Source of the DNA: a virus
DNA: 23,354 nt
Strand: one strand, 5' to 3'
IMG/VR virus record: IMGVR_UViG_3300008111_000117
Coordinates: 1-23,354 of that record
The notes under the pieces were generated by a model. It did not search any database and was not told the origin of the DNA. It saw only the letters and a program-made list of their open reading frames with translations. Below are positions 836 through 18,314 of the stretch, piece by piece (within the stretch, counting starts at the first letter, position 1; every line of letters starts with the position of its first letter). The position numbers and the translations under genes were made by a program.

Positions 836-3800
836 TTAAACGTAGCCAGGGAACCAAACGACATCACCGTCATTGGTTGACACTTTGATCCAAGCAGCAC
901 GATTGTTTGGATCAGTTGGTGCAGTATTATTATTTACATAGTAAAGATATTTTCCATTAGTAGTTCCTGATGCAATTTCCACAAATGCCGAGGCGTGTTT
1001 TCCATCTAACTGATCTGCGTTTAGGTTAGTGACCAATGTTGTATTGGTCATCGTCATTGGGCCTTCAACAGAAAGCGCGGTGCCTGAACCTGTGTTTTTA
1101 GCTACAACTCCAATCGCGGCAGATGTTGTTGCTATACCCTGGACACCAACACTTGCTCCAGAACTATTCGTATAACCATAAACACCAAAACTTACACCAG
1201 TTGTCTTGGATTGGCCCAAAACTCCAATGTCAGCGGTTCCTGTTGCATTGGCCTTCATCGCCATAGTCAATGCAAATGCTGTGCTTGTATTACCAGTAAA
1301 TTCACCCGCGCCGTTACAGTAGACATTTCCCGTAACGGTCATTGCCGACCCATCCCAAGTCAAAGATTGAGATGTAGAACCGATTGAGAACTTATATGCA
1401 GCACCTGAATAACCAAGGAAGAAACCAGTTCCTGTGTTGTATGCGGTCTGGCCGCCCTTGATGTGGCCTGACGTATTAATAGTCAGAGCATCTTGAACCG
1501 TCAAAGCTCCGGTGTTCACCGTGATGGCAGAAAGCGATCCAACCTTCAGAGTAGACAGGTAAGGCACATTCCAAACCGTGTTACCTGTTACTGGATCATA
1601 AACGCCATCGCTTTGATAAACAGATTGACCAGCAATAATAGTCGGCGCAGTCGCAACCCAGTTTTGATTTACACCACCAATAGTCGCGCCCCAAGAACCA
1701 GCAGGGGGAAAACTTGTGCTTCCTGATGTAGTGATGGTTGTCGGACTTGAACTTAGAGTCGTTAGGTCTGTTGATGTATAGCAAATACGCGATGATGCGC
1801 CATTAGTCCCATTTGTTCCGTTAGTCCCATTGGTGCCGTTAGTTCCATTGGTGCCGTTGGTGCCAGAATATCCTCTGGCAGTAATTGATGCACTTGTCCA
1901 ATTAAATGATGTGGTTGAATTTGTTGCTGTGTCAGTAATAAATACTGTTGCGCCCCACAATGTAAAACCGACAGACGGGGATGTGCCTGGAGTCAGCGTC
2001 CAACCACCTGAAGGCGCTGAACCAAAAGCACCCGTGCTCCATGTATAAGTTGCGGAGCCTGATGGTCCAGAAGGAATACTTACAGCCCACTGATATACGG
2101 TTGGTTCAGCAGATTGCGTTGCATTGGCTCCGTTAACTCCATTAGTCCCGTTAGTGCCATTAGTTCCTGCGTATCCAACAATATATGCTGTACTTGTAGA
2201 CCAAGTTACCGTGGAGGTTGCTGTTGTATTAGTATCAGAATAAATCTGTTGACAAGCATATAAGTTTTGTCCAGCAGGTCCAACTCCAGGCGTTTGAGTC
2301 CATCCATTTAAGGTTGGATTTGTGAAAGTGCCAGTTGCCCATGTATAAGTAGAACTTCCAGACGGAAATACAGTTGGTGTAGTAGCTGCCCATTGATAAA
2401 CTTCTAATTGTGCAGTTCGAACTCCATTTGTTCCATTTGTGCCGTTGGTTCCATTAGTTCCGTTAGTACCATTTGTGCCATTTGTTCCTGCATATCCAAC
2501 TACGTTTGCAGTAGATGTTGTCCAACTTACCGTAGAAGTTGAAGATGTTCCAGTGTCAGAATAAAGTTGAACGCATGAATAAAGAGTTTGACCTGGACTT
2601 CCTGATCCAGGATTTTGAACCCAACTATTTGGAGTAGATGGCGCAGTAAAAGAGCCTGTTGCCCATGTGTATGCACTTGTTCCAGATGGAAATGTCGATG
2701 GAGTGCTATTCGCCCATTGATAAACCGTTAATTGAGCAGTTCTAGTTCCATTTGAACCATTAGTTCCGTTTGTTCCATTTGTACCATTTGTTCCGGCGGC
2801 ACCGACAACCAATGCTGTGGTCGTAGACCAAGTTACGGTAGAAGTTGCTGTTGTAGCGTTGTCGGAATAGTCTTGGATTACGCTATACAACGTCTGCCCA
2901 GAAGAGCCAGAGCCAGGATTTTGCAACCATCCATTTGCAGTACCTGGGGCTGTAAATCCTCCCGTTGCCCAGGTATATGTACTGGTTCCAGCAGGGAAAG
3001 CAGACGGAGGACTAGATGCCCATTGGAACAACTGCAACTTTGCTGTTCTAATTCCGTTCGTCCCCGGCGCTCCGTTGTCTACAAAAATGAATTGCAACGA
3101 AGAAGCAGAATATTGAGCGACATTACCTGCTGGGTCTTTGTATCGAACAGGAACAGTCAAGACCGCTGGAGTGCTTGTCATTGCCGTGGGAGTTCCCCAC
3201 TGAGCGTAAGTGCCTCCGTCTGTAATGGCCCCTAGAGTCAAGCCACCAGAAGTTGTGATGTCTGTATTTCCAGTTGTGTCACTGGCTCCAATTCGCCAAG
3301 TATTCTCAATAAAAGACAGATCACCATCATCTTGTGCAGTTACAAATTCAACTCCGCCAGCACTGGTTGACCCATAAAGCCTTGGGTTAATTCCAGTAAA
3401 CGAAGGTGTCCCACTTGTACGAGATACAGAAATAGCACCTGGGGCAAAGGTAGCGACAAAAGAAGATGCCGCTATGGTTGCCCAAGAGAATTTGGCGGAA
3501 ATAGTGGATAGTTGAGATGAGCCATATTCGTTAGAAACACTGAACGCAAAATAGTAATCATCAGTGCCAAGTATTACGTCAGTGAATTTAATGGCAGCAC
3601 CAGGACTAAATGGCAAAGAATTTGGAGAAAGTTGTGTAGCCCAAATCTTCCAATCAGTCTGAGTGGGAGATGCTACTGTCGTATAGAAAAGACTTATAGA
3701 TGTGACTCTGCCAGAAGAAGGAAGCTGGCAAGAGACACTGAACGTAGGAGGATTATTTGCTGGAAGCTCATCAGCAAATACTGGGGCCGACAAAGATGGG

Positions 3801-5293
3801 AAATAGAAAACAGAAGCGATTGATGAGTTAGGAGCAGGAGAGAATTGGGTAATGCTCCCGTCGTCATAGACTCCAGAGTTGTACTCACTAGCCTCAATCC
3901 TAGCCCCTAGGTTGCCATCAGGAAGAGAGGCTTCTTGTACCTTGGTAACTCGGAATGGTTTTGCTGACCAACCGTAGTCTGTATTAGTTACGGAGATCAC
4001 ATCTCCCGCGTCTACCTGAATACCAGTGTAAGCAGTAGAGAAGGAAACAATCAGGTCTTCTCTGGCCTGCTCAAGAATACGATTAGCCAAATAGGTGGCC
4101 TGGACAGAATCATTAACCAGATCAAAACTGGTTGAGTATTTGTTTACTGGCTCATTAGGATATAGAAGTCCAGCAGGCGTCTGAAGGAAAACATACTCGG
4201 GTTGGTCTTTGTTGTCCTTGAATGGGAATGAAACTTCGATCTGGTTAATAGAAGACGCCAGATCAACAACAGAGACTTTGATCTCTCCGATGATGTTGGA
4301 GTCATTGAAAGCAAAACTTGTCGATTCTGCTTTGTTGATTACTGGTGCCCACTGACCGGTAGAGGCTTGGTAGGACAGCCAAGAATCAGACGCAGTAAGA
4401 ATCTTGTCTACGTTTTCTAGTACCGATCTTCCGGTATCAATGACGCCATTAACGCGATACCTCGCTTGGGTAGCGGAGCCTCCACCAGAGGGCGTATAGG
4501 AGATCGTAGCGTCCGAGTAGGTGTTTAGAGCGTTGCAGGCAGTCGTATTGACTGAAGCCGCAGGAACAGCCCCTCCGTAGGTTGTAGAGGTCAGGTAGTC
4601 ATAAAGCGCATCCCCAGGCTTTGCAACACCAGTTCCGTTCAGTGCGTGTTTGACCTTGAAGGTGACAGGCTGAAGAGAGGTAGTCCCAGCGTCTCGGTTG
4701 TAGATGAGCTTGACGATGGCAAACGCCAGACCATTCATCTGCCTAGTGCCGGTCCAACGCAGGCCAGAAGCGATGTCGCTCCCACCCATAAAAGTAGAAG
4801 GAGAGGTGCCAGTGACGTTGGTGATTACGCCAGCAGTAGTCGAGGTGTAGAGGTTGATGTAAAGGTTTCCAGAAACCTTTGTATCTACGTTTCCATCACC
4901 ATCAGTCAGAGATATAACTTTAGTTGGATCAGTGCCATCAAAAGCTACAAGCCGATCACCATAATAGAACTTCGTCCGGTCATAAGTAAACTGTCCGTTA
5001 GGCGAGATATTGGAAATCGCCAGGACGTAGTACATCGTTTTTTGATCTGTGGACAGCACTGCATCCACAAACGTACCACCCATCCAGGCGTCACCATAAA
5101 CGACTGGGATTGAGTTAGTAGAACTTGGAGGTACTTGCTGCCTTACTCCGCTATCCGTTTGATCCGGGGACTTCTGACCAAATACTCGCGTGATGATGTA
5201 AGACGCAGCAAAGTTGATCGCAAATGTGGCTACAGCAAGAGCAACCCCAGTAAGTTGCGCCCCAATCGCTGCCAATACTACTGATGCTGGCAT
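836..5293 (-). CDS. Tail tip protein (gpJ-like) fused to repeat-rich receptor-binding fibre
   Basis: The 1485-aa protein starts at an ATG with AAGGAATAAG upstream. Residues 1-40 hold an Ala-rich hydrophobic stretch, as is usual in central tip proteins of siphovirus tails. Residues about 45-480 read as the gpJ/TipJ-type hub body, with VVYGDAWMGGTFVDAV and the later segment QARYRVNGVIDTGRSVLENVD. Residues about 490-600 look fibronectin- or Ig-like. From about 740 to 1164 come four beta-rich modules separated by Gly-Thr-Asn tracts, then a C-terminal fibre region containing NLNADQLDGKHAS, a motif shared by many phage fibres. The role is to close the tail tip, attach to tape measure and hub, and bind the host surface. 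The hub genes lie just upstream and the GNAT gene ends 4 bases away. Tip assignment is confident; the receptor is unknown. Confidence 0.88.
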   Translation of the reverse strand: MPASVVLAAIGAQLTGVALAVATFAINFAASYIITRVFGQKSPDQTDSGVRQQVPPSSTNSIPVVYGDAWMGGTFVDAVLSTDQKTMYYVLAISNISPNGQFTYDRTKFYYGDRLVAFDGTDPTKVISLTDGDGNVDTKVSGNLYINLYTSTTAGVITNVTGTSPSTFMGGSDIASGLRWTGTRQMNGLAFAIVKLIYNRDAGTTSLQPVTFKVKHALNGTGVAKPGDALYDYLTSTTYGGAVPAASVNTTACNALNTYSDATISYTPSGGGSATQARYRVNGVIDTGRSVLENVDKILTASDSWLSYQASTGQWAPVINKAESTSFAFNDSNIIGEIKVSVVDLASSINQIEVSFPFKDNKDQPEYVFLQTPAGLLYPNEPVNKYSTSFDLVNDSVQATYLANRILEQAREDLIVSFSTAYTGIQVDAGDVISVTNTDYGWSAKPFRVTKVQEASLPDGNLGARIEASEYNSGVYDDGSITQFSPAPNSSIASVFYFPSLSAPVFADELPANNPPTFSVSCQLPSSGRVTSISLFYTTVASPTQTDWKIWATQLSPNSLPFSPGAAIKFTDVILGTDDYYFAFSVSNEYGSSQLSTISAKFSWATIAASSFVATFAPGAISVSRTSGTPSFTGINPRLYGSTSAGGVEFVTAQDDGDLSFIENTWRIGASDTTGNTDITTSGGLTLGAITDGGTYAQWGTPTAMTSTPAVLTVPVRYKDPAGNVAQYSASSLQFIFVDNGAPGTNGIRTAKLQLFQWASSPPSAFPAGTSTYTWATGGFTAPGTANGWLQNPGSGSSGQTLYSVIQDYSDNATTATSTVTWSTTTALVVGAAGTNGTNGTNGTNGSNGTRTAQLTVYQWANSTPSTFPSGTSAYTWATGSFTAPSTPNSWVQNPGSGSPGQTLYSCVQLYSDTGTSSTSTVSWTTSTANVVGYAGTNGTNGTNGTNGTNGTNGTNGVRTAQLEVYQWAATTPTVFPSGSSTYTWATGTFTNPTLNGWTQTPGVGPAGQNLYACQQIYSDTNTTATSTVTWSTSTAYIVGYAGTNGTNGTNGVNGANATQSAEPTVYQWAVSIPSGPSGSATYTWSTGAFGSAPSGGWTLTPGTSPSVGFTLWGATVFITDTATNSTTSFNWTSASITARGYSGTNGTNGTNGTNGTNGTNGTNGASSRICYTSTDLTTLSSSPTTITTSGSTSFPPAGSWGATIGGVNQNWVATAPTIIAGQSVYQSDGVYDPVTGNTVWNVPYLSTLKVGSLSAITVNTGALTVQDALTINTSGHIKGGQTAYNTGTGFFLGYSGAAYKFSIGSTSQSLTWDGSAMTVTGNVYCNGAGEFTGNTSTAFALTMAMKANATGTADIGVLGQSKTTGVSFGVYGYTNSSGASVGVQGIATTSAAIGVVAKNTGSGTALSVEGPMTMTNTTLVTNLNADQLDGKHASAFVEIASGTTNGKYLYYVNNNTAPTDPNNRAAWIKVSTNDGDVVWFPGYV
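1802..2794 (-). repeat. Four collagen-like Gly-Thr-Asn tracts encoded by 9-bp repeats
   Basis: Four tracts of tandem nine-base units encode Gly-Thr-Asn: 1802-1864 (seven units), 2123-2167 (three perfect units, then GVN and GAN), 2426-2488 (seven units) and 2750-2794 (four units, then GSN). A single GTN follows GAP at 3056-3064. Glycine at every third residue is the collagen Gly-X-Y pattern, which in phage fibres forms trimeric stalks. There is no Pro enrichment. Third codon positions vary between units (ACT, ACC, ACA; AAT, AAC), so the tracts are kept at protein level rather than being very recent DNA expansions. Confidence 0.9.
1865..3052 (-). repeat. Four tandem ~86-residue beta-rich fibre modules
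   Basis: Four related modules lie at 2795-3052, 2489-2749, 2168-2425 and 1865-2122 (protein residues about 748-833, 849-935, 957-1042 and 1058-1143), each followed by a Gly-Thr-Asn tract. The shared pattern is RTA-L-VYQWA near the start, YTWATG-F in the middle, then W-Q-PG-G-GQ-LY, YSD-T, TSTV-W-TSTA and a closing G-(Y/A)-A. The first three are close by eye. The fourth has diverged (TQSAEPTVYQW, YTWSTG, FNWTSASITARGY) and lacks the FP after the QW block. They are likely folded beta domains threaded along a trimeric stalk. Confidence 0.88.
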
Positions 5294-6387: not shown

Positions 6388-7034
6388 GGAGCCACGTTCT
6401 CCCTAAACACAAAAGGACCGTCCCAGTTCACGAAAGCACCATTGGTCATTGGAGTCAGAGTGTATGTCGGGCACTGCTCTGCGTACACAGGAAAACTCAC
6501 CGCAGAGCCGACAGCGGTCAGTGTTCCCGTAGAAGGTGTACCAATCACAGGCCGATGGATCGTCGCGTTCACAGTGGCCGCGCCGCCCCTTAGAACGTCC
6601 GCAGTGATCTTGTAAACGTAAGACCCTAGTTGGATGAAGTCTCCCGCCGCCAAGACGACTACAGAGCTTCCTACAGCAGGCAGGTTACCGATAGAGATCG
6701 TCGTTGCGTTAGCCGCGGGCACAGAAGCCAAAGTCAGCGCCGCCGCCTGGGCACCAGATAGTCCACCGCGATAAGCAGTAAACCAAGAAAGATTGCTGCT
6801 CGAAAAAGTGATGTTTGCAGCAGTTTGACGGTCAAGGTTGTCAATCGTCTGGATAACATCTCGGACCTGTGGGTAGTACAGATAGTTATGCGGGACGATG
6901 GTGAACACCCAAGGCACAGCGGTGAGGTACTGAGCAGTCCTGATCTGTCCGCCTCTAGAAACTTGCTGGCCGACAGTACGCCGGTTATTCACAGTCATTG
7001 ACTGCTGAATATCGACTATCGATTGAAACGACAT
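6384..7034 (-). CDS. Distal/minor tail protein (216 aa)
   Basis: The 216-aa protein starts at the ATG of a TAATG junction with the tape-measure stop, so it is translated directly after it. The N-terminal third has SIVDIQQSMTVNNRRTVGQQVSRGGQIRTA and a Trp/Tyr-rich strand (PWVFTIVPHNYLYYPQVRDV). The C-terminal half contains GDFIQLGSYVYKIT, a pattern seen in distal or minor tail proteins that form the ring between tube and hub. There is no membrane segment or signal peptide. Position right after the tape measure is where distal tail proteins lie in lambda- and HK97-like phages. Exact family is uncertain, and the next gene could be the true distal protein instead. Confidence 0.68.
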   Translation of the reverse strand: MSFQSIVDIQQSMTVNNRRTVGQQVSRGGQIRTAQYLTAVPWVFTIVPHNYLYYPQVRDVIQTIDNLDRQTAANITFSSSNLSWFTAYRGGLSGAQAAALTLASVPAANATTISIGNLPAVGSSVVVLAAGDFIQLGSYVYKITADVLRGGAATVNATIHRPVIGTPSTGTLTAVGSAVSFPVYAEQCPTYTLTPMTNGAFVNWDGPFVFRENVAP

Positions 7035-9463
7035 TATGCGCGTCCTCTTCCAATGGCAAGCGACTTGTTAGCGTAGGCATTAGCCGCCCACACCGCAGTG
7101 CTGCTGCCCATGATCCTATCCTCAAAACTCTTTACGTCAATCGCTTGGATGTTGTAGTTGTTAATAACCTGAGAACCACCAACAGAGGATAGAGCGTTAT
7201 TTGGAACAATAGTCCCAGATGTGCGAGGCACAAACATCTCTGGTCCCTTCTCTCCAACCATGTAGGAAGTCCCCGCGCTAACAGCGCCTCCAGAAGCTCG
7301 AGGAATAAGCCCAGAACCTCCGGTGATAGTTCCGCCGCTGGCCGAACCAAATGAGAACCCCATAGACCTCAAGAAAGAGTTGAACAGCATCGTTGCCGAG
7401 GCTTTCAACTGGATCAGGATCAAATCTTGGATGATCGACCTAGCCAAGTCCTTAAACGATAGCTTTCCAGTACGAACAAAGTTCTCTAAAGCTTTCTCCA
7501 TGTTACCGAACACAGCATCATAGACACGCTGGGTGGCCTTCAGAGAGTCCTGCATAGAGATGAACATCTCTTGCATTCCTTGGTTCCTTCGAGCCTGGGA
7601 GACCAATAGATCGCGCTTCTCAGGGCTAAGATCAGGATTAGCCATGATCTCTGCAATCTTTTTCTGGGTATCCAACTCCAGCATGGCAATCTGAAGCGCC
7701 TTATCAGAGGCTCCAATCAAAGAACCTTTGAGTTGCAATTTCTGCATCTCGTACTCAAGGCTTTCCTTTTCTGCCTGCCCAGCCTGAACCAACTGGTTGT
7801 AAATCTGATCCCTACGAGATTGCTCTTGAGCAAGATCATTCATGGCTTCATCAGCAAGTTTCTGACGGTCGGCCATTTCATCTGCGTAACGCTTCTTTGC
7901 CAGTTCACGAATTTGGTTTTGCTTTTCCTGCTCAATTTGAATTAGTTGTTGAGCAAGTAGCTTTGCATTTTGCTCGGCAAATACATCAGCTTCTGCTTGA
8001 TTTTTCTTTGCCATTTCATTTCTGGCAAGGAATATCTTTTCTTGAGCATTCAACTCAATAGTCATCATGTCATTCGCAGTCATCCTGCGAAGATCATATT
8101 GATTCTTGACTATTGCTTGATCAATCTCAAACGCCAGTTGTCGGCGTTTTTCGCCAAACTTAACTTCATCGTTAATTGCTTGCGTATCTTGTTGTGACTT
8201 CTTTGCAGCGGCTTCACCGGCCTGCATCTTGTCAAGGATTGCTTGACGCTTAGATACAAACTCCTGAAAGCTCTGCAACAGTTTCCCGTAATAAACAGAG
8301 TCAGGATTGGCTTTATTAAGTTGGTTTGCAGCAGCAGTGATGAACTGGTTTATCTGATCCAGTTGCTCTTCAAGCGTTTGTGGCCGACCTATATTAAGCA
8401 GCGCATTCCAAGCCGCACTAGCTGCGTTCTTAAGTTTTGTCCATGCGCCCTCAAGAGTTCCAACTTGGCGCTCTTGGTCTTGAAGTTTCTTATTCAGCGC
8501 ATCAGCAGCAACCTTGGCCGCTTCTTGAGCCTTGCCTTGCTTATCAAGCAGAACAATGTGCTTGTATTGCTCAAGCGTGAGGAAATTCATCCTGTCATTG
8601 AGCGACTTAATAGAGGACGCGCCGCCATCAAAAGCAGGGATTAGTTTCTGTGCAACCTCAGTAGCCGTTTCACCAGACAACTTCGTGACGTTGGCAATAG
8701 CCTGGGCTACAGAGCCCATAGATTGATCTGTGAACTTCCCAGACTTAACCAACTCCATCAAAATGTCTTTGGTCTTGCCAATAGACAAGTTGGTCTTTGT
8801 ACTGACCGTGTCGGCCAAATCAAGAAAGGTCTTTTGCGTCAGGTTTGCGTAATTACCCGTCAGGATCAACTGATCTCTGAGTTCTGCCGAATCTCTTGCG
8901 CCTTGATAAAACGCAACACCCAAAACACCAACAGTCGCGGCCAATCCTCCCATTGCGACCCGCATCGGGGTCAGCATGGTTGCAATGGCTTTGAACATAT
9001 TGCCCACGCCACCAAACTGATCCTTCAACTGACCACCCTGCTGGAGCAGAGCAATCATGGCGTTTTGGCCTGATGCGATCTGGGTTACAAGGTCGGTAGT
9101 TTGGTAGGTAATGGCAAGTTTTTGCTGCTCAGACAGAACCCCCATCGTGCGCTTGCCAGCAGCGGCTACTTCGTCATAAGCCTTAGCCTGGGCAAGAAGT
9201 TGCTGCTGAAGAGCAGGAGCCGCGTTCTTGAATCTTCCCGCGGCAATCTCGCGTTCAACCTGCGTTACCTTAGATACTTCTTTGCCGTAGTCCTCGGTAG
9301 CGTATTTAAGAGCAACAATCTCTTTGGCGGCCGCATTAGATTCCCGAGTAATGGCCGCCTTGAGGTTCCTAGTCTCAGCAATAGCCTTGTCAACGTCAGC
9401 AGTAAATGACGCAGTATCAAGACCAAGAACGACACCAAGTCGAGCAATGTTGCTGGATGCCAT
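7034..9463 (-). CDS. Tail length tape-measure protein (809 aa)
   Basis: This is the second largest gene. The start is the ATG of a TAATG junction with the upstream gene. The N-terminal 150 residues are helical (SSNIARLGVVLGLDTASFTADVDKA) and fit the TMP_2 type. Residues about 165-190 are a hydrophobic Gly/Ala/Val segment (GGLAATVGVLGVAFYQG), typical of the part injected into the host envelope. Residues about 370-620 are charged coiled coil, rich in Gln, Glu and Lys. Residues about 645-703 match the lambda tape-measure C-terminal domain pattern (ENFVRTGKLSFKDLARSIIQDL). A Gly-rich linker and a short NYNIQAIDVKSFEDR tail end it. At about 0.15 nm per residue this predicts a tail near 120 nm, an estimate from the family rule. 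Confidence 0.95.
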   Translation of the reverse strand: MASSNIARLGVVLGLDTASFTADVDKAIAETRNLKAAITRESNAAAKEIVALKYATEDYGKEVSKVTQVEREIAAGRFKNAAPALQQQLLAQAKAYDEVAAAGKRTMGVLSEQQKLAITYQTTDLVTQIASGQNAMIALLQQGGQLKDQFGGVGNMFKAIATMLTPMRVAMGGLAATVGVLGVAFYQGARDSAELRDQLILTGNYANLTQKTFLDLADTVSTKTNLSIGKTKDILMELVKSGKFTDQSMGSVAQAIANVTKLSGETATEVAQKLIPAFDGGASSIKSLNDRMNFLTLEQYKHIVLLDKQGKAQEAAKVAADALNKKLQDQERQVGTLEGAWTKLKNAASAAWNALLNIGRPQTLEEQLDQINQFITAAANQLNKANPDSVYYGKLLQSFQEFVSKRQAILDKMQAGEAAAKKSQQDTQAINDEVKFGEKRRQLAFEIDQAIVKNQYDLRRMTANDMMTIELNAQEKIFLARNEMAKKNQAEADVFAEQNAKLLAQQLIQIEQEKQNQIRELAKKRYADEMADRQKLADEAMNDLAQEQSRRDQIYNQLVQAGQAEKESLEYEMQKLQLKGSLIGASDKALQIAMLELDTQKKIAEIMANPDLSPEKRDLLVSQARRNQGMQEMFISMQDSLKATQRVYDAVFGNMEKALENFVRTGKLSFKDLARSIIQDLILIQLKASATMLFNSFLRSMGFSFGSASGGTITGGSGLIPRASGGAVSAGTSYMVGEKGPEMFVPRTSGTIVPNNALSSVGGSQVINNYNIQAIDVKSFEDRIMGSSTAVWAANAYANKSLAIGRGRA

Positions 9464-10931: not shown

Positions 10932-11648
10932 TTAGTTGTTCACCCAGTTGTAGAGACCAGCCCTCGGATGGATCGTGAACATAGCTTTTGCTTCTGCTCC
11001 AGGCTGAGAATCAATCTGGAAATTAGAAGCCCGACCAGTAAATGAATAATATACAGTGTTGCTTCCTTCTGTGGCGGCAATCACATAGGTGCGATCAATC
11101 GTACCGCTATAGGCATCTGCCCTCATTTGCAACAAACCGGCATCAGAAGGATTCCAAGTGGCAGTAATGGTCATTGATGTTCCAGCCGCTTGAGTAGGCA
11201 TCTTGTCTGATTGCCTTGCCCCAGCAACAGGGAATGAAACTGACGCATCATCTTGACCAAATGCTGGAATAGTCTGGATGTTCAAAAGATTAGTAGCAAA
11301 TGTAATTGCCTGTACTTGTGCCAGCGTTCCCATCTGCGCTGCGGTCAATGCAGTAGGCGTACCTCCAGCAGACGTATACAGCACAAATGATTGAGTGCCA
11401 GCAGGAGGAGTTCCAGTGACAGTCAATGCGCGAGTGCCACCGTTGTATGAAACGATGGGGTATGAGGTGCCAGCAATAAAAATTGCGCCAGTATAGAAAT
11501 TGGTTACTGCGCTGGCGGTAGTGCCGTCAGTAAAAGTTGCCGGCAAAGTAATTACTGACGCAGAAACAGTACCGCTACCAGTAACTTGGTTGTACTGAAA
11601 ATACATGGATGCCGAGAAACCCGGCAAAACCTTGTTTGGCAGAGCCAT
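10932..11648 (-). CDS. Second tail-tube paralogue with inserted N-terminal domain (238 aa)
   Basis: The protein starts MALPNKVLPGFSASMYF, parallel to MALPNKILPGFSVAMYA in the neighbouring gene, and the C-terminal 95 residues agree at roughly 70% by eye (AGARQSDK, RADAY-GTIDRT, ATEG-N-VYY, QPGAEAKA-FTIHPR). It differs by an insertion of about 75 residues (about 18-93) containing VSASVITLPATFTDGTT, GAIFIAGTSYPIVSYNGG and RALTVTGTPPAG. This reads as extra beta strands, probably an Ig-like domain displayed on the tube. The upstream AAAGGAAAATC ribosome site and first 12 bases match those of the other copy, so the duplication carried its start region. Tube identity rests on the context after the tail terminator and on pairing with the other copy. 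It may be the major tube, a minor one, or a cap. Confidence 0.85.
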   Translation of the reverse strand: MALPNKVLPGFSASMYFQYNQVTGSGTVSASVITLPATFTDGTTASAVTNFYTGAIFIAGTSYPIVSYNGGTRALTVTGTPPAGTQSFVLYTSAGGTPTALTAAQMGTLAQVQAITFATNLLNIQTIPAFGQDDASVSFPVAGARQSDKMPTQAAGTSMTITATWNPSDAGLLQMRADAYSGTIDRTYVIAATEGSNTVYYSFTGRASNFQIDSQPGAEAKAMFTIHPRAGLYNWVNN

Positions 11649-11657
11649 GATTTTCCT

Positions 11658-12152
11658 TTAGGCGTTGTTAGACCAACCGTACTGATTTCCACGGGGATGA
11701 ATCGTGAAAACAGCCTTGGCTTCTGCACCGGGTTGAGCGTCGATCTGCCACTGAGATACGCGACCGTTGAAGGCGTAATAAACGATGTTTGCGCCTTCAG
11801 TAGCGGAGATCACGAACGTGCGGTCAATCGTGCCGTTGTACGCATCAGCACGAAGCAACAGCAGAACCGAGTCAGTCGGGTTCCACGCGGCAGTGATCGT
11901 GAGCGAGGTCGGAGCACTCTGGACAGGAACCTTGTCGGACTGACGCGCACCGGCAACCGAGAAGTTCGCCACAGCGTCATCTTGACCAAACGCAGGCACT
12001 GCCTCGACGTTCATCAAGTTACCAGATACCGCCAGAGGGCTAACGCTTGCAACTAGAGCAAGCTGTGCAGTGGTCAACGGAGTTGGAGTAGCCCCAGGTT
12101 GTGCGTACATCGCAACACTGAACCCAGGCAGAATTTTGTTTGGCAGAGCCAT
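11658..12152 (-). CDS. Tail-tube protein, short copy (164 aa)
   Basis: The 164-aa protein begins MALPNKILPGFSVAMY at an ATG with AAAGGAAAATC upstream. It is beta-rich: NFSVAGARQSDK, PTSLTITAAWNPTDSVLLLL, GTIDRTFVISATEG, VYYAFNGRVSQWQID and AKAVFTIHPRGNQYGW. It sits after the DUF3168-type tail terminator and before a second, larger copy, and the chaperone and tape measure follow. That order is where the major tail-tube gene lies in lambda- and HK97-like phages, and the fold pattern fits. The protein lacks the N-terminal insertion of the second copy. Which copy forms most of the tail, or whether both alternate, cannot be told from sequence. Confidence 0.85.
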   Translation of the reverse strand: MALPNKILPGFSVAMYAQPGATPTPLTTAQLALVASVSPLAVSGNLMNVEAVPAFGQDDAVANFSVAGARQSDKVPVQSAPTSLTITAAWNPTDSVLLLLRADAYNGTIDRTFVISATEGANIVYYAFNGRVSQWQIDAQPGAEAKAVFTIHPRGNQYGWSNNA

Positions 12153-12162
12153 GATTTTCCTT

Positions 12163-12582
12163 TCAAGTTGGGATGTCTAGTGTGCAGTCCAGAAATACCT
12201 GGGCCATCTTTTCTTTGTCGTCATAGGAATTGTATAGCCAAAACACATCCGCCTTGGCAATCCAAAACCCATATGTCGGCCCACCGAAAACCCCGGTGTA
12301 GCCATGCAACGATTGTAGTATCTGGTTACTGATTGTGAAACCGTCTTCCATTCCCTGAGTGAAAATAGAGATTTGGAAGACAGGTCGATCAATACCTTTG
12401 TTCGCTTGGTTTCCACCTGTATAGACTTCTTGGTGGACGTTTCTAAGTTGCCAAGTGAGAAACTTGGGCTCTAAGGCAAAGTTACGGTTGAAAGCAGAAT
12501 AGACAGGAACCGGCGTGACAATGCTAGTCAGGTGCGCCTGAATTGCCCTAGCGTAGTCAACCGGATTCTTTTGTGCTGCCAT
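12163..12582 (-). CDS. Tail terminator / completion protein (DUF3168-like, 139 aa)
   Basis: The 139-aa protein starts at the ATG of an ATGA overlap with the upstream stop. The pattern PVDYARAIQAHLTSI near the N-terminus, then PVPVYSAF, DRPVFQISIFTQGMEDGFTISNQILQSLHGY, and a final QVFLDCTLDIP strand is that of DUF3168-type tail terminator proteins. These cap the tail tube and join it to the head connector. Context agrees: it follows the adaptor and head-closure genes and precedes the tube. A clear AAAGGA ribosome site lies just after it for the tube gene. No odd residues are evident. Confidence 0.82.
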   Translation of the reverse strand: MAAQKNPVDYARAIQAHLTSIVTPVPVYSAFNRNFALEPKFLTWQLRNVHQEVYTGGNQANKGIDRPVFQISIFTQGMEDGFTISNQILQSLHGYTGVFGGPTYGFWIAKADVFWLYNSYDDKEKMAQVFLDCTLDIPT

Positions 12583-12923: not shown

Positions 12924-13540
12924 AGCACCAAGTCCTTGTAAGGCCTGAGCAAAGAAGAAACTCCGAACGGAATCTCTCGCATGATCTTCTCGGTAGTGTT
13001 TGACCTGTTGTTATACAGGTGCATCAGCATCAGAAGACTCGCCTGCTGAACAACAGGATAGTCCGCTAAGTGACTCGCAGCTACGGTGTACTCGCAGTAG
13101 ACCGGACTAGTCCGTCCAGTATTCAGGTCAGTCGGCAGAGTCGCAACAACTACCTTGTTACCAGAATCATCGTAGTAATACTGATTGCTTGCTACGGTTT
13201 GCAACGTGTTTGAGGCATCCCAGTACTTCACCGCATCAACGGTAACAGACTGCGATACCTCGGGAAGATCAAGCGTCAGCGGAGTCCCTGACAGACTGCC
13301 AGCGTTGTAGTAGACCCGATACTGGCAGGGAAACATCGATTGACCGATGTAGTCCTCAATGACCATCCTTGAAGCCAACTCCAACCCATACAGAAGATCG
13401 TCCTGGGACGTATCACCGTACAGGTTAAGCTGGTCAGCAACAGTGGTCAAAGGAATCCATGTGGTCGAGACATCCCGACCAATCTGCTCAACCTTTTGAT
13501 AGTTGAACGGATTTCGATTCCCGCCAGTTTGGTATTCCAT
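12920..13540 (-). CDS. Head-tail connector / adaptor protein (HK97 gp6-like, 206 aa)
   Basis: The 206-aa protein starts at the ATG of a TAATG junction with the upstream capsid stop. It has PLTTVADQLNLYGDTSQDDLLYGLE and a helix MVIEDYIGQSMFPCQYRVYY, a strand block (GTPLTLDLPEVSQSVTVDAV), and a C-terminal IPFGVSSLLRPYKDL, which is the diagnostic tail end of phage head-tail connector proteins (HK97 gp6, PF05135 class). These form a 12- or 13-fold ring under the portal that receives the head-closure protein. Placement right after the capsid genes is standard. The central YYYDDSGNKVVVATLPTD strand region is longer than in the smallest members. Confidence 0.85.
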   Translation of the reverse strand: MEYQTGGNRNPFNYQKVEQIGRDVSTTWIPLTTVADQLNLYGDTSQDDLLYGLELASRMVIEDYIGQSMFPCQYRVYYNAGSLSGTPLTLDLPEVSQSVTVDAVKYWDASNTLQTVASNQYYYDDSGNKVVVATLPTDLNTGRTSPVYCEYTVAASHLADYPVVQQASLLMLMHLYNNRSNTTEKIMREIPFGVSSLLRPYKDLVL

Positions 13541-14544
13541 TACGCACTCATCCGAACGCCAGCAAACGGATCACGCACCGTGGAGACAACCTTCTTCTCC
13601 GCGTACATCGTAATGAAGCCTGGGGCGCTTTGTTCCATCATCTGTACGGAGAACTCGTTGGAGTCGCCAATACACAGGAACCTCGGCCAGTTGGCTAGGT
13701 AGATCGGGAATGCGGCTGACAGGTAAGGATTAGGAATAACAGGCCAACCAAAAATGCGACCAACAGCGCCGCCGTCATCTTCACCCACCTCCAGCAGGAC
13801 AGGAAGACCCTGCAAGTCTTTCATCTCGCGCAGAGACTCAATCATTGAAGGCCGGATGTGCCATGCAGTCCCAGGCATAGCCCAGTACTGTCCCGGCAGG
13901 CGAGTCGTCAGGGACGCGATGTCGTTGTAGACAACGCCACCAGCAGTCTGAGCCTGGGTGGACAAGGAGTGAATGCCGTTCGTAATGGCCGTCCCAGACG
14001 TTCCAAAAGCCGCCGTGGCGGCACTGGTATACATATCCAACCCACGCAGTCCAGCAGTGGCTCCTGTGGCCGTTGTGGTCGATCCTGCTTGGTCGTTGTT
14101 GACTGCCATCGACGCGGCTTCTACCTGACTCCATTCCATCATCAGGTCTTCAACCAGAGCCGCTTCTAGAGCGTTCACATCACTCAAGACAGCAGACCGG
14201 ATGGGAAGAGTGGCCGATACAGACCGAACAGGAAGTTGCCAAATGCTGGTATCCACGTTAGGACTGCCAGCATTGGAGCCTGGGGTATAGCCCCAAGGGG
14301 TTGAACTCAGCGCATTGCCTACCTTAGCGGCAAACAAGGCATCTGAGCCCACAATCGGAAGGGGCCGGTATGCCATCCGAAAAGGATTGACATACCGAGC
14401 CGCTGCAAAAGCATCATCGAAAGTTGTCCGTCCACCTTTGCCGGTGCCAGAACCAGTAAGTGCCGAGGCTTCAGAGATGTCAATCTTGACCCTCCGTTGC
14501 TCATGGATGGATTTCTTGATTCCGTCTAGGACTTTTTCGATCAT
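13540..14544 (-). CDS. Second HK97-fold capsid protein, paralogue of the major capsid (334 aa)
   Basis: The start is the ATG at 14544, with AAAAGGAAAAACC upstream; an in-frame ATG at 14583 (TAATG junction) would add 13 residues read through a hairpin. Clear shared blocks with the upstream capsid are EASALT-G-GKGGRT, DTSIWQ, PIRSAVLSDVNALEA, NNDQ-GST with GLRGLD, and the C-terminal APGFITMYAEKKVVSTVRDPF, against PGSITFFGEKRLGTSVRDPN. Only about 24 residues precede EASALT, against about 98 in the first copy, so it lacks the coiled-coil delta/scaffold region. It probably needs the first capsid and its scaffold to assemble. It may form part of the shell, pentamers, or a minor protein, none of which is shown. 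Confidence 0.88.
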   Translation of the reverse strand: MIEKVLDGIKKSIHEQRRVKIDISEASALTGSGTGKGGRTTFDDAFAAARYVNPFRMAYRPLPIVGSDALFAAKVGNALSSTPWGYTPGSNAGSPNVDTSIWQLPVRSVSATLPIRSAVLSDVNALEAALVEDLMMEWSQVEAASMAVNNDQAGSTTTATGATAGLRGLDMYTSAATAAFGTSGTAITNGIHSLSTQAQTAGGVVYNDIASLTTRLPGQYWAMPGTAWHIRPSMIESLREMKDLQGLPVLLEVGEDDGGAVGRIFGWPVIPNPYLSAAFPIYLANWPRFLCIGDSNEFSVQMMEQSAPGFITMYAEKKVVSTVRDPFAGVRMSA

Positions 14545-14560
14545 GGTTTTTCCTTTTAAC

Positions 14561-14576
14561 GGGGGCCTAAGCCCCC
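14561..14576 (-). other. GC-rich stem-loop between the two capsid genes
   Basis: A perfect inverted repeat on the minus strand, GGGGGC TTAG GCCCCC, has a six-pair GC stem and four-base loop. It lies 6 bases after the first capsid stop and 16 bases before the start of the second. There is no U tract after it (GTTAAAAGG follows), so it is not a standard intrinsic terminator. It may slow or partly stop transcription, protect the upstream capsid mRNA end, or tune translation of the second gene, giving more first than second capsid protein. Confidence 0.8.
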
Positions 14577-14582
14577 TTCCCA

Positions 14583-15914
14583 TTAGGCCGCTGCGGTGGC
14601 AGTCGAGCGATAACGGATCAGTGCGTTGGGGTCACGCACCGAGGTGCCCAAGCGCTTCTCACCGAAGAATGTGATCGAACCTGGGAGAGTCTGGTCGTAG
14701 CGGCGAACCACCATGCTCAGACGATCAATGATGGTGTGGGACTTCTGCCAATCGCCGAAGTACATCGGGTAGCGAGAGACCGTACCCGCGGCAGCGGTCG
14801 TCGGTTGGCTTGGATTGTCGAGGTACTTGTTGACCACCACATCAAAGCCCAGCAACTGGCCCACGATACCGTCAACGCTCAGACCTTCATTGCGATTGAA
14901 GATCGGGGCACCGTTGGTATCACGCAGAGCGCGAATGCCGTTCAGAAGGATCGGGTTGACCATGATCTTGCAAGCCGGGGTCCAGTATTCCTGGGGCAGT
15001 GCGTAGATCATGTTGATGACGTCGGTATAGATGACGCTGTTAGCGCCAACCGTATTGACGTTGGAGGTCAACTGGTCGTAGGTAGCGAGGTTGTGCAGAC
15101 CAGAGGTCGAACCCGTACCAGACGTACCGAAGCCTGCCGCCGAGGTCGTACCACCCGTGAAGGTTGCATTCGCACCAGCGTACTGGTCCAGACCACGCAG
15201 ACCGTCAGCGCCACCAGTGGTCACCGAGGTGCCAGTGCCGCTTTGGTCGTTGTTCTGCACCATCGACTGAGCTTCAGCCTGGGCGAACTCCATCAGCATG
15301 TCGTCAACGACAACCGCTTCCAGACCATCGATGTCGTCCAATGCGGAGGTTCTGATGGGGAATTGGACGTTGATGTCCTTCAGCACGATCTGCCAAATGG
15401 ACGTATCTTCCGTAGTGGAAGCGCCGTTGTTCTGGATTCCGTAGCCCCACTGAACGCCAGCATTGCCGGTCTTCACGCGGAACTGATAGGACGAACCATC
15501 AGTCGTAACCGTGCGAGACAGGCCGCGCATGGGGTTAGCCAGACGCAGAGCAGCAAACACCGGGTCGTAAGCGGTGCGGCCGCCCTTGCCGTCGCCACCA
15601 GCGGTCAGCGCAGATGCTTCCTTCAGGTAGGCATTCATCTGCTCTTCGCTCTGGAACATCACCAGTTCTTTTTCAAACTGGCTCTTGCCGTTGGCGATGG
15701 TCTTCAGTTGCTCACGCACCATCCGGTTCACATCCTGGCGGATCGTCTTGGCAGGGGCCTTGATGATGCCGGGTGCCTGAACAGAGGCGACTTTGGCTTC
15801 CAGTGCAGCAATCTTCTCGCTGACTTCAGCCTTCACCGACTCAACGGCGCTTTCGAGCTTGGCGGTTTGCTGGGCTTCGATCTGATCCAGCTTTTCGAGG
15901 ATAACGGTAGACAT
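14583..15914 (-). CDS. Major capsid protein, HK97 fold with N-terminal delta-like domain (443 aa)
   Basis: Start is the ATG at 15914, two bases after the protease stop, with GAAAGG upstream; a TTG two codons earlier is less likely. Residues 1-98 are a charged heptad-type helix region (VILEKLDQIEAQQTAKLESA and following), the size of the 102-residue HK97 delta domain that acts as scaffold. The conserved EASALTAGGDGKGGRT follows at about 99-114, a reasonable place for cleavage by the upstream protease. The rest contains capsid-typical DTSIWQ, FPIRTSALDDIDGLEA, NNDQSGTG with GLRGLDQY, YWTPACKIMVNP, and the C-terminal PGSITFFGEKRLGTSVRDPN. It makes the icosahedral head. A shorter paralogue follows in tandem. 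Confidence 0.95.
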   Translation of the reverse strand: MSTVILEKLDQIEAQQTAKLESAVESVKAEVSEKIAALEAKVASVQAPGIIKAPAKTIRQDVNRMVREQLKTIANGKSQFEKELVMFQSEEQMNAYLKEASALTAGGDGKGGRTAYDPVFAALRLANPMRGLSRTVTTDGSSYQFRVKTGNAGVQWGYGIQNNGASTTEDTSIWQIVLKDINVQFPIRTSALDDIDGLEAVVVDDMLMEFAQAEAQSMVQNNDQSGTGTSVTTGGADGLRGLDQYAGANATFTGGTTSAAGFGTSGTGSTSGLHNLATYDQLTSNVNTVGANSVIYTDVINMIYALPQEYWTPACKIMVNPILLNGIRALRDTNGAPIFNRNEGLSVDGIVGQLLGFDVVVNKYLDNPSQPTTAAAGTVSRYPMYFGDWQKSHTIIDRLSMVVRRYDQTLPGSITFFGEKRLGTSVRDPNALIRYRSTATAAA

Positions 15915-15916
15915 CT

Positions 15917-16705
15917 TCAACCTTTCAGTTTTTGGGACAGGACGCGGAGCAACTCACGCTCTTCAAGAGCCTGGAGGATTTCCGCTTCATTGGTCACTTC
16001 CGCGTCAGACTCACTCTGGTGCGGCGCAGTAAGCTCCTCTTTCACAGCATCACGCTGTTCCAAGACTTGCTTAAAAGTAGACGCGGCAGTGACCGCATCT
16101 TTTCGGGATAGCCCTGCCTCACGCAGAGCCGACTCCAGAACCTTGAGATCAGCAGAACCGTCAGGCCGGAAGAACTCCAGCTTTTTGACTTCTGCCATCG
16201 GGTTATTTGGGTACATCACTACGGACACCTCCCGCAAACCACCGTTGGTGATCTGGAAGTACCCTTCGCCAATGTCGTCTTGACTGCACATGGAACCGTC
16301 TTCCTTGACCATGCAGTATTCATCTGCATAAGCCCCGACAGACACGCCACCAAACATATTGGGGCTTTCGGTCATGATCTGATACAGGTCAGAGCCACTG
16401 GTGGTGTTGACGAACAACCTGCCACTAGCGTTCATGCCCTCATCATCAAACTCGAAGTTGGTCCACTCGCCAACAGGCATGCTGTCGCTGTTGTGGTTCA
16501 GGAACATAGGCAAAGGCTTGCCCATCTTCTGAAACTCTTGAGCCCAGGCGGAAAAGCCTTCAGGACGGTAGTAAAACTTACGACCGTCTGCACCCTCTCG
16601 GGCTCCCCACGTAGTGACGCGGGCCTCAATCTTTCCGGTCTGCTCCTCGGACTTTTTTTCCGGCAGGTTTAGACTTGCTTCGCAGACCAGTTGGACTTGC
16701 TTCAT
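15917..16705 (-). CDS. Prohead protease, S78 family (262 aa)
   Basis: The start at 16705 has TAGGGG seven bases upstream. The S78 pattern is clear: LPMFLNHNSDSMPVGEW places the catalytic His at about 71, FGGVSVGAYADE holds the catalytic Ser at about 122, and LREVSVVMYPNNPMAEV (about 157-173) is the family block after it. The protease matures the prohead by cutting the delta domain of the capsid and itself. After residue 180 about 80 residues of charged helix follow (KVLESALREAGLSRKD, QALEERELLRVLSQK), a likely scaffold or self-cleaved extension. It lies before the capsid, as usual, but is separated from the portal by five or six extra genes. The stop is two bases before the capsid ATG. Confidence 0.93.
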   Translation of the reverse strand: MKQVQLVCEASLNLPEKKSEEQTGKIEARVTTWGAREGADGRKFYYRPEGFSAWAQEFQKMGKPLPMFLNHNSDSMPVGEWTNFEFDDEGMNASGRLFVNTTSGSDLYQIMTESPNMFGGVSVGAYADEYCMVKEDGSMCSQDDIGEGYFQITNGGLREVSVVMYPNNPMAEVKKLEFFRPDGSADLKVLESALREAGLSRKDAVTAASTFKQVLEQRDAVKEELTAPHQSESDAEVTNEAEILQALEERELLRVLSQKLKG

Positions 16706-16827: not shown

Positions 16828-17187
16828 TTACACCATTGCCAACAATATAGCAAACTCTTCGTCATGTAGATTCTTAGTGGAAGATGTCATCACTTCCCCT
16901 ACATCTGACGCAAGACTGTTTGCGTATAGCCTGCATTCGGCATCTATCCGAATTGCTCCGAGTGCCGAAGGCTTGCCAATGCTTGCCTTCGTTTTGATAG
17001 GTCGAAGCAAAACGCTAGCGTCTTGTTGCTCTTCCTTTTTCTTGGTTTTAGTGTAAGGCTCAATAAAACTGTACGAACCACCACCAGAAGAAACAGATGG
17101 GGCACCTTGAAATAGCAGGCCTGTCGTAGCGACAACAATCGCAACATAACCGATACCTTGTACTGCTATTGCGCGAGGATCAATCAT
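16828..17187 (-). CDS. Hypothetical protein with one N-terminal hydrophobic segment (119 aa)
   Basis: The 119-aa protein starts at the ATG of an ATGA overlap with the repeat protein before it. Residues about 8-28 are hydrophobic (AVQGIGYVAIVVATTGLLFQG), a plausible membrane anchor or buried helix. A Ser/Gly-rich stretch and a basic KTKKKEEQQ follow. The last third (IRIDAECRLYANSLASDVGEV) is mixed. The opening MIDPRAIAVQGIG is one I recall from small genes in head modules of other phages, but I know no function. It may be an accessory head or envelope-associated protein; position is all that supports this. Confidence 0.68.
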   Translation of the reverse strand: MIDPRAIAVQGIGYVAIVVATTGLLFQGAPSVSSGGGSYSFIEPYTKTKKKEEQQDASVLLRPIKTKASIGKPSALGAIRIDAECRLYANSLASDVGEVMTSSTKNLHDEEFAILLAMV

Positions 17188-18314
17188 TGCCGGGTCACCG
17201 TCGTTATGCCTGCAACAGAAGTCAACGATTGAACGACAGGTCCGCTAGAGCGAGATGAGTCAGTAACGATAAGGTTTGAACCAATTCCGTAAAGCGCTGC
17301 AAGTTCTGTAATCATGGTTGCAATATCACTTCCAAGTGATGTTGCAGAAGACGTTGTTTCAATGTTTACCTGATTGCCTTCTTGAGTAACTGTTTGATTT
17401 ACCAAACCAGCTACGCGAGAAGATGGTCCAACCACCAAAGGATTCTGCAATCCATGCAATAAATATACGTTGTAAAGCTCAATCGCTTGCGCTTTTGTAA
17501 TCAGATAAGAATCAGATTCAACAAGTGGTTGGTAGAAAGCATTTGTATTGCTGACCAGTGAAGGAACAACAATACTTGATTCAGTGATCGCTGCGTCAAA
17601 GAACGACTGTGTATTAACAAGTAGACTTGGTAAGAGATTTGTTCCAGCACCTGTGATTGATGCGAAATAAAATTGATTTACGTTATCGTATCTGTTTGCG
17701 GATAAATTAACACTAGATGCTACGCTTCCAGAATAAAACGCATTGGTGTTTTCATATCGCGCAGGATTCAACGCATACGAGACTGAAACTGACGCAGCAA
17801 AAAAGTTTTGCGTATTTGTAAATAATGTAGGTGTTAAGACATAAGTATCACTAACATTAGCGGAATAAAAAGACTGAGAATTACTATAAAGACTAGGCAG
17901 AAGCGTCTGTGATGGAACGCTTTGAGTTATTGTTGCGTTATAAAAATCTTGCGCGTTGTCATATCTTGTGGCCGTTAATGTTTGAGTTGGGCCACTGACA
18001 TTTGCAACTGTTGGACTGTAGAAAGTTTGACTATTTGTATAAAGTGATGGAGCAAGCGCATAACTTGCACTTACTTCCTGACTAAAAAACGATTGTGAGT
18101 TTGTTACAAGCTCAGGAGAGAGCGTAACTGTGCCGCGTGTCAGTGTCGGCGCAAAGAACGATGTAGTGTTGGTATAGAGAGTCGGCGAAAGATTGACCGA
18201 CCCTCTTGTAACCGTAGGCGCAAAAAAAGTCTGATCGTTAACGACCAGAGATGGATTAAGCGCTTGTGTAGTCGGGCCTACCTCTCCTTGCCCAAGAAGA
18301 AGTGGCAGCAGCAC
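17184..18314 (-). CDS. Repeat-rich virion accessory protein, probable head or tail fibre (376 aa)
   Basis: The frame starts at GTG (18314), one base after the upstream stop codon region, with AGGTG about 11 bases upstream. Residues 18-269 are 11 imperfect repeats of 22-26 residues with the pattern L-P-S/T-L-Y-x-N-x-Q-S-F-(Y/F)-S-A-x-V/I. Each probably adds a beta turn to an elongated rod. Residues 270-376 hold two copies of a module LY-GL--NPLVV--SSR--G-V-QT-T, at about 281-318 and 341-376, a type I recall at the C-terminus of small phage structural proteins. There is no signal peptide. A head-fibre or decoration role is inferred from position between portal and protease and from repeat architecture. 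Confidence 0.75.
   Translation of the reverse strand: MLLPLLLGQGEVGPTTQALNPSLVVNDQTFFAPTVTRGSVNLSPTLYTNTTSFFAPTLTRGTVTLSPELVTNSQSFFSQEVSASYALAPSLYTNSQTFYSPTVANVSGPTQTLTATRYDNAQDFYNATITQSVPSQTLLPSLYSNSQSFYSANVSDTYVLTPTLFTNTQNFFAASVSVSYALNPARYENTNAFYSGSVASSVNLSANRYDNVNQFYFASITGAGTNLLPSLLVNTQSFFDAAITESSIVVPSLVSNTNAFYQPLVESDSYLITKAQAIELYNVYLLHGLQNPLVVGPSSRVAGLVNQTVTQEGNQVNIETTSSATSLGSDIATMITELAALYGIGSNLIVTDSSRSSGPVVQSLTSVAGITTVTRQ
17508..18263 (-). repeat. Eleven tandem ~23-residue repeats in the 376-aa protein
   Basis: Units begin with residues such as ALNPSLVVNDQTFF, NLSPTLYTNTTSFF, TLSPELVTNSQSFF, ALAPSLYTNSQTFY and TLLPSLYSNSQSFY. Conserved positions are Leu-2, Leu/Arg-6, Tyr/Val-7, Asn-9 and Phe-13, with Tyr or Phe at 14 and Val or Ile near 18. 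Lengths are 22 to 26 residues because of loop differences in units 4 and 5. Units 5, 8 and 9 share an Arg-Tyr-(Asp/Glu)-Asn variant, suggesting partial internal duplication. Confidence 0.85.

Follow-up and report, generated by a model that had tools for sequence, protein, structure and literature searches.

A tandem pair of tail-tube genes, the second with a predicted inserted beta domain, in an uncultured siphophage group

A siphophage tail is usually described as a single tube protein repeated in every ring. In phage T1, the tube protein gp41 combines a beta-sandwich (residues 2-15, 95-113, and 135-218) with an Ig-like decoration domain at residues 16-94 (PMC11945409). Plain and decorated subunits occur together in one tail in phage SPP1, where gp17.1 and gp17.1* are mixed 3:1 by frameshift and the decoration is dispensable (PMC7666168), and in the lactococcal 936 phages, whose MTP/TpeX system adds host-binding modules to the tube by frameshift (PMC6669499). 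Siphophages of actinophage clusters AM, AU, AW, BI, CC, DJ, and EL have two genes annotated as major tail protein (PMC11080557). A literature search on mixed tail tubes returned only frameshift systems, annotation notes, and contractile injection systems.

The DNA analyzed here (the window), 23,354 bases long, makes up an entire IMG/VR record; it is a fragment from an uncultured siphophage group and part of the genome of a freshwater bacterial virus. Its minus strand carries a siphophage head and tail module: terminase, portal, S78 prohead protease, two capsid proteins, connectors, tubes, tape measure, and tip. The two tube genes occupy the position expected of tail-tube genes, with connector and terminator-position genes upstream and the tape measure downstream. 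The features used below are as follows.

7034..9463, minus strand: tape measure protein, 809 aa (TMP_2 and Tape_meas_lam_C matches; PHROG tape measure)
10932..11648, minus strand: tube B, decorated tail-tube paralogue, 238 aa (ORF, BLASTP, AlphaFold model, Foldseek)
11181..11270, minus strand: tube B hinge loop, residues 127-156, loose in the monomer model and with interface residues mismatched with tube A
11373..11594, minus strand: beta-domain insertion in tube B, roughly residues 19-92 (BLASTP, alignment, AlphaFold model, dN/dS; insertion site as for the T1 gp41 Ig-like domain)
11649..11659, minus strand: ribosome-binding stretch AAAGGAAAATC of tube B, directly before the ATG and overlapping the tube A stop
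11658..12152, minus strand: tube A, undecorated tail-tube protein, 164 aa (ORF, BLASTP; homologue in phage P19250A; fold assigned through homology with the modeled tube B)
11907..11996, minus strand: tube A hinge loop, residues 53-82 (PAFGQDDA...QSDK), putative ring-to-ring contact by analogy with the lambda, T1, and JBD30 hinge loops
12153..12163, minus strand: ribosome-binding stretch AAAGGAAAATC of tube A, directly before the ATG
12163..12582, minus strand: gene in tail-terminator position, 139 aa (by position; directly upstream of the pair in relatives)

The terminator-position gene has no family match in Pfam or PHROGs. Elsewhere in the module, genes for HK97-type major capsid proteins of 445 and 347 aa lie side by side (13540-15920, minus strand); their products are 36% identical, both match PF05065, and may form a two-protein capsid. 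This capsid pair recurs in 65/65 related loci that extend far enough upstream, as well as in the Methylophilaceae phage P19250A (KX815270), where the second copy is annotated as hypothetical; because phages with a single tube gene carry it too, it looks older than the tube pair. A 376-aa protein built from repeats about 25 residues long, of the LSPTLYTNTQSFF type (17184-18314, minus strand), has no match in Pfam. The 1485-aa tip protein (836-5293, minus strand) contains collagen-like GTNGTNG runs, with weak Collagen and Phage-tail_3 matches. Promoter and terminator scans yielded nothing above chance, and a comparison with Rfam gave no match.

The two tube proteins are paralogues, with 62% identity across 152 residues (BLASTP, E 1e-71, from a single comparison). 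An earlier interpretation of the letters and ORFs (the sequence-only reading) had described near-identical starts, a common ribosome site, and about 70% agreement over the last 95 residues. All three descriptions hold: the N-terminal 18 residues are 78% identical by BLASTP, AAAGGAAAATC precedes both start codons, and 67/95 C-terminal residues (71%) are identical. Tube A and tube B are separate ORFs, each with its own start and ribosome-binding stretch, which rules out a programmed frameshift of the SPP1/936 type. In those phages plain and decorated subunits share a tail, as they may in the window virus. There, frameshifting of one gene gives the decorated form a C-terminal extension, whereas here that form would come from a second gene with an internal insertion near the N terminus. 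The actinophage clusters resemble the window virus in having two tail tube genes per genome; they are known here as annotation, and the passage of PMC11080557 concerned describes neither a plain/decorated division nor covariation.

Tail-tube identity is supported by fold and gene position together, as the sequence-only reading had proposed. The AlphaFold model of tube B (mean pLDDT 77) consists of strands, a helix at 170-181, and a loose hinge at 133-152. Its best PDB match by Foldseek is the T1 tube (9l0f_G; E 1.7e-6, prob 1.00), followed by FCWL1 and lambda gpV; further matches are the SPP1, T4, and pyocin tubes, and tube proteins are also matched in BFVD. At the sequence level, tube A scores 15.4 bits against Pfam Phage_tube_2 (E 0.015), below the curated cut-off of 27, and tube B has no match to that family; neither protein matches a PHROG, and filing the pair under Phage_tube_2 or the PHROGs tail families was therefore rejected. 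A PDB sequence search with the tubes gave nothing above cut-off, and no sequence similarity to T1 gp41 was detected.

Tube B exceeds tube A by 74 aa, and the surplus falls at about residues 19-92. The sequence-only reading had placed an insertion of about 75 residues, seen as extra beta strands, near the N terminus of the second protein; tube B is indeed second in the direction of transcription on the minus strand, and structure prediction renders the insert as six beta strands, mostly at pLDDT 70-90. The likeness to T1 gp41 (PDB 9l0f) covers the beta-sandwich tube, the hinge hairpin, and a beta decoration inserted near the N terminus (residues 16-94 in T1, 19-92 in tube B). Every T1 tube subunit is decorated, however, whereas the window virus encodes an undecorated paralogue beside the decorated one. 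By this analogy the insert is most likely an exposed decoration domain that probably projects from the tail surface, and the earlier prediction of surface display is strengthened by the matching decoration position. The full-length structural alignment of tube B with T1 (rmsd 9.5) is too loose to establish the insert domain as Ig-like. Searches with the insert found nothing above cut-off in Pfam, PHROGs, or PDB sequences, and no match in the phage collection by tblastn.

The 238-aa form is confined to the window and five near relatives (L004-L008; six contigs of one lineage, with L008 truncated where its contig stops). The insert of L006 differs from that of the window by 14 synonymous and 3 nonsynonymous changes (dN/dS about 0.07), a ratio that marks the insert as a selected protein domain. 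A second insert, of about 65 aa, lies at a different place in the tube B of another relative (L023, 4206-4790), namely in an 8-residue loop described below, on a contig that ends inside the gene; it is apparently independent of the window insert. The two inserts show a similarity of E 0.006 in a single comparison, and with the L023 model at pLDDT 54, too poor for fold comparison, we do not claim a common origin. Among the related contigs, inserts occur only in tube B and in no tube A.

Scanning viral contigs with tube A, tube B, and mixed alignments yielded about 240 loci, reduced to 177 distinct tube regions once duplicates were removed. Tandem tubes are present in 129/177; a lone A-type tube occurs in 20/177 and a lone B-type tube in 12/177, counted where the tube lies well inside the contig, and the remaining regions are cut by contig ends or incomplete. 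The search for the pair in other phages that had been suggested thus returned a widespread arrangement, and two tube genes are less unusual than the sequence-only reading had supposed: most relatives have them, two such genes are also annotated in several actinophage clusters (PMC11080557), and mixed tubes are made by frameshift in SPP1 and the 936 phages. Five MAG contigs also carry members, with labels that are mostly Beta- or Gammaproteobacteria. The hosts of the tandem-tube phages are probably freshwater Betaproteobacteria. Tube A is 164-166 aa long almost without exception in these loci. Ordinary tube B is 172-173 aa almost throughout and has two features absent from tube A, an extra 8-residue loop (IVGTAANGTGA) and W16. 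In one relative (L020, 733-1267), a frameshift splits tube B, which is either a broken gene or a sequencing error. A-type and B-type proteins form the two main groups of the tree, and the tandem arrangement is therefore old.

Single-tube cases were read directly in four instances: P19250A, L012, and L050 are among the A-only phages, and L132 is among the B-only phages. Because both kinds exist, one subunit suffices for a tail. P19250A, the sole isolate found for the group and the single match among 50,697 phage records, shares the gene order and tandem capsid genes of the window, and its tube is 64% identical to tube A; it differs in having a single tube gene without the insert.

A clean exchange separates the window from its close relatives at tube B. 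Over 3.9 kb ending near codon 10 of tube B, relative L014 is 92% identical to the window in DNA, and its tube A is 99% identical to that of the window. Past that codon, L014 carries an ordinary tube B and a small ORF where the window has the decorated form, and identity resumes at 97%, 10 nt past the window B stop. The small ORF (about 50 aa; 4420-4573 of L014) lies between ordinary tube B and the next gene, inside the swapped segment, and is absent from the window. Three further relatives (L016, L018, and L019) show a break identical to that of L014. Since the flanks match while the B body differs, the second tube slot has had its allele exchanged for the decorated B. Evidence on the source group of this allele is mixed: the best 17 non-self BLAST matches of window B are without exception A-type tubes (up to 71%), and both the B-specific loop and W16 are missing from it, whereas a tree test of its placement does not reject B membership (p-AU 0.67). 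We therefore assign it to neither type.

We favor, at a probability of roughly 0.6, a tube encoded by two genes, the second of which supplies a decorated subunit that can be swapped, with A and B built into one tube. Under this reading, tube A and tube B would be two tail-tube subunits of a noncontractile siphophage tail, descended from an old tandem arrangement that most relatives retain. The two would use a common hinge loop for stacking as they polymerize around the tape measure to give one tube. In the window lineage, the second gene would have been replaced by recombination from its conserved start to its stop codon, the incoming B being an A-like tube subunit with an extra beta domain near its N terminus. 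As in phage T1, that domain would face outward from the tube, and the tail would then be decorated only at B subunit positions; the domain may help weak binding to the host or to surfaces.

The argument for a shared tube comes from covariation across 75 distinct ordinary A/B pairs. At position 63 the pairs are NN in 38 cases, SS in 33, and SN in 4, with the same residue in 0.95 of comparisons within a genome vs. 0.49 across genomes. We defined the ring-ring interface from descriptions of JBD30 and T1 as the hinge (53-82) and the receptor loops (106-111 and 138-147). The median within-genome excess is 0.28 in interface columns vs. 0.03 elsewhere (P = 0.0003), in a test that was not blind, the strongest columns having been seen before the interface was defined. 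Independent contrasts on a tree of the terminator-position gene give agreement against disagreement of 24.4 to 2.3 for interface columns, compared with 28.1 to 15.1 for the rest, with counts that are small per column and columns that are not independent. The covarying residues include 57, 61, 63, 77, 79, 108, 133, and 140. The hinge also contains a conserved GQDDA, which by analogy recalls the lambda aspartates D61/D62 required for ring stacking (PMC8718954).

The strongest competitor, which we nevertheless regard as doubtful, traces the covariation to old gene conversion between neighboring copies instead of physical A-B contact. Adjacent genes this similar can recombine, the excess in columns 48-93 forms one block, and synonymous sites are too diverged to reveal old events. 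Beyond column 94, however, covarying and noncovarying columns alternate, and the longest identical A/B DNA tracts within a genome barely exceed those between genomes (median 17 vs. 14; maximum 29 vs. 38). The synonymous codon similarity excess is smallest where the amino-acid excess is largest, with its minimum in the hinge block (+0.015); this speaks against recent conversion, which the codon identity test found to be a weak candidate cause. Covariation with no matching synonymous signal suggests that A and B share one tube. The earlier proposal of two tube subunits in one tail is accordingly plausible and gains support from covariation at the putative ring-ring contacts. For the window phage itself, a fit of A and B is less certain: its pair agrees at only 5-6/12 covarying columns, at the cross-genome level (6.4) and below the minimum of 7 among the 75 ordinary pairs. 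Such a mismatch would be expected if its B is an imported newcomer.

It is unlikely that B is instead a specialized ring or short segment, by the terminator or the distal tip, decorating one end of the tail only. A role of this kind would suit the conserved loop and W16 of ordinary B and the old separation of A and B into distinct groups, and one-ring specialists with the tube fold, such as the distal tail protein and the terminator, are standard in siphophages (PMC11945409). Against it, the hinge and receptor loops of tube B are as conserved as those of tube A, and both faces of B covary with A, where a terminal ring would need just one tube-compatible face. B-only phages indicate that B-type proteins can build a whole tube, and the terminator position is already filled by the 139-aa upstream gene.

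Less probable still is that the two genes are alternatives, with one used per virion at a time or a spare kept since it recombines into variants. The sequence-only reading had set alternative alleles, found separately in related phages, against its own proposal, and this was borne out in part: some relatives have only A or only B, and the same slot holds either ordinary B or its decorated allele, exchanged as a cassette. The usual state is nonetheless both genes together, as the 129 tandem regions attest. The common ribosome-binding stretch, the gap of 9 nt between the tube A stop and the tube B start, strong purifying selection on both genes (dN/dS 0.02-0.08), and the covarying interfaces likewise weigh against a role as alternatives. 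An assembly or recombination artefact without function, to which the rarity of the insert might point, is most improbable: an assembly artefact is refuted by the in-frame presence of the insert in six separate contigs, some about 92-94% identical to the window in DNA, and its low dN/dS also weighs against this reading.

The novelty of the two-gene tube lies in a large group whose members usually have two tube genes, apparently coevolving, and in a decorated version that fills the second slot. We hold more tentatively, at somewhat below even odds, the fuller proposal of a tube made from two gene products with coevolving ring-ring interfaces, whose second gene is an exchangeable slot open to decorated subunits of other lineages; the tail surface could then be swapped by gene exchange while the core subunit stays constant. 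If two coevolving tube genes are the usual state, the questions become whether a helical tube tolerates a mixture of subunits and what sets their order; the alignment of 75 distinct ordinary pairs points to candidate residues for testing. A second slot that takes decorated versions would show how a tail surface can change without touching its essential core.
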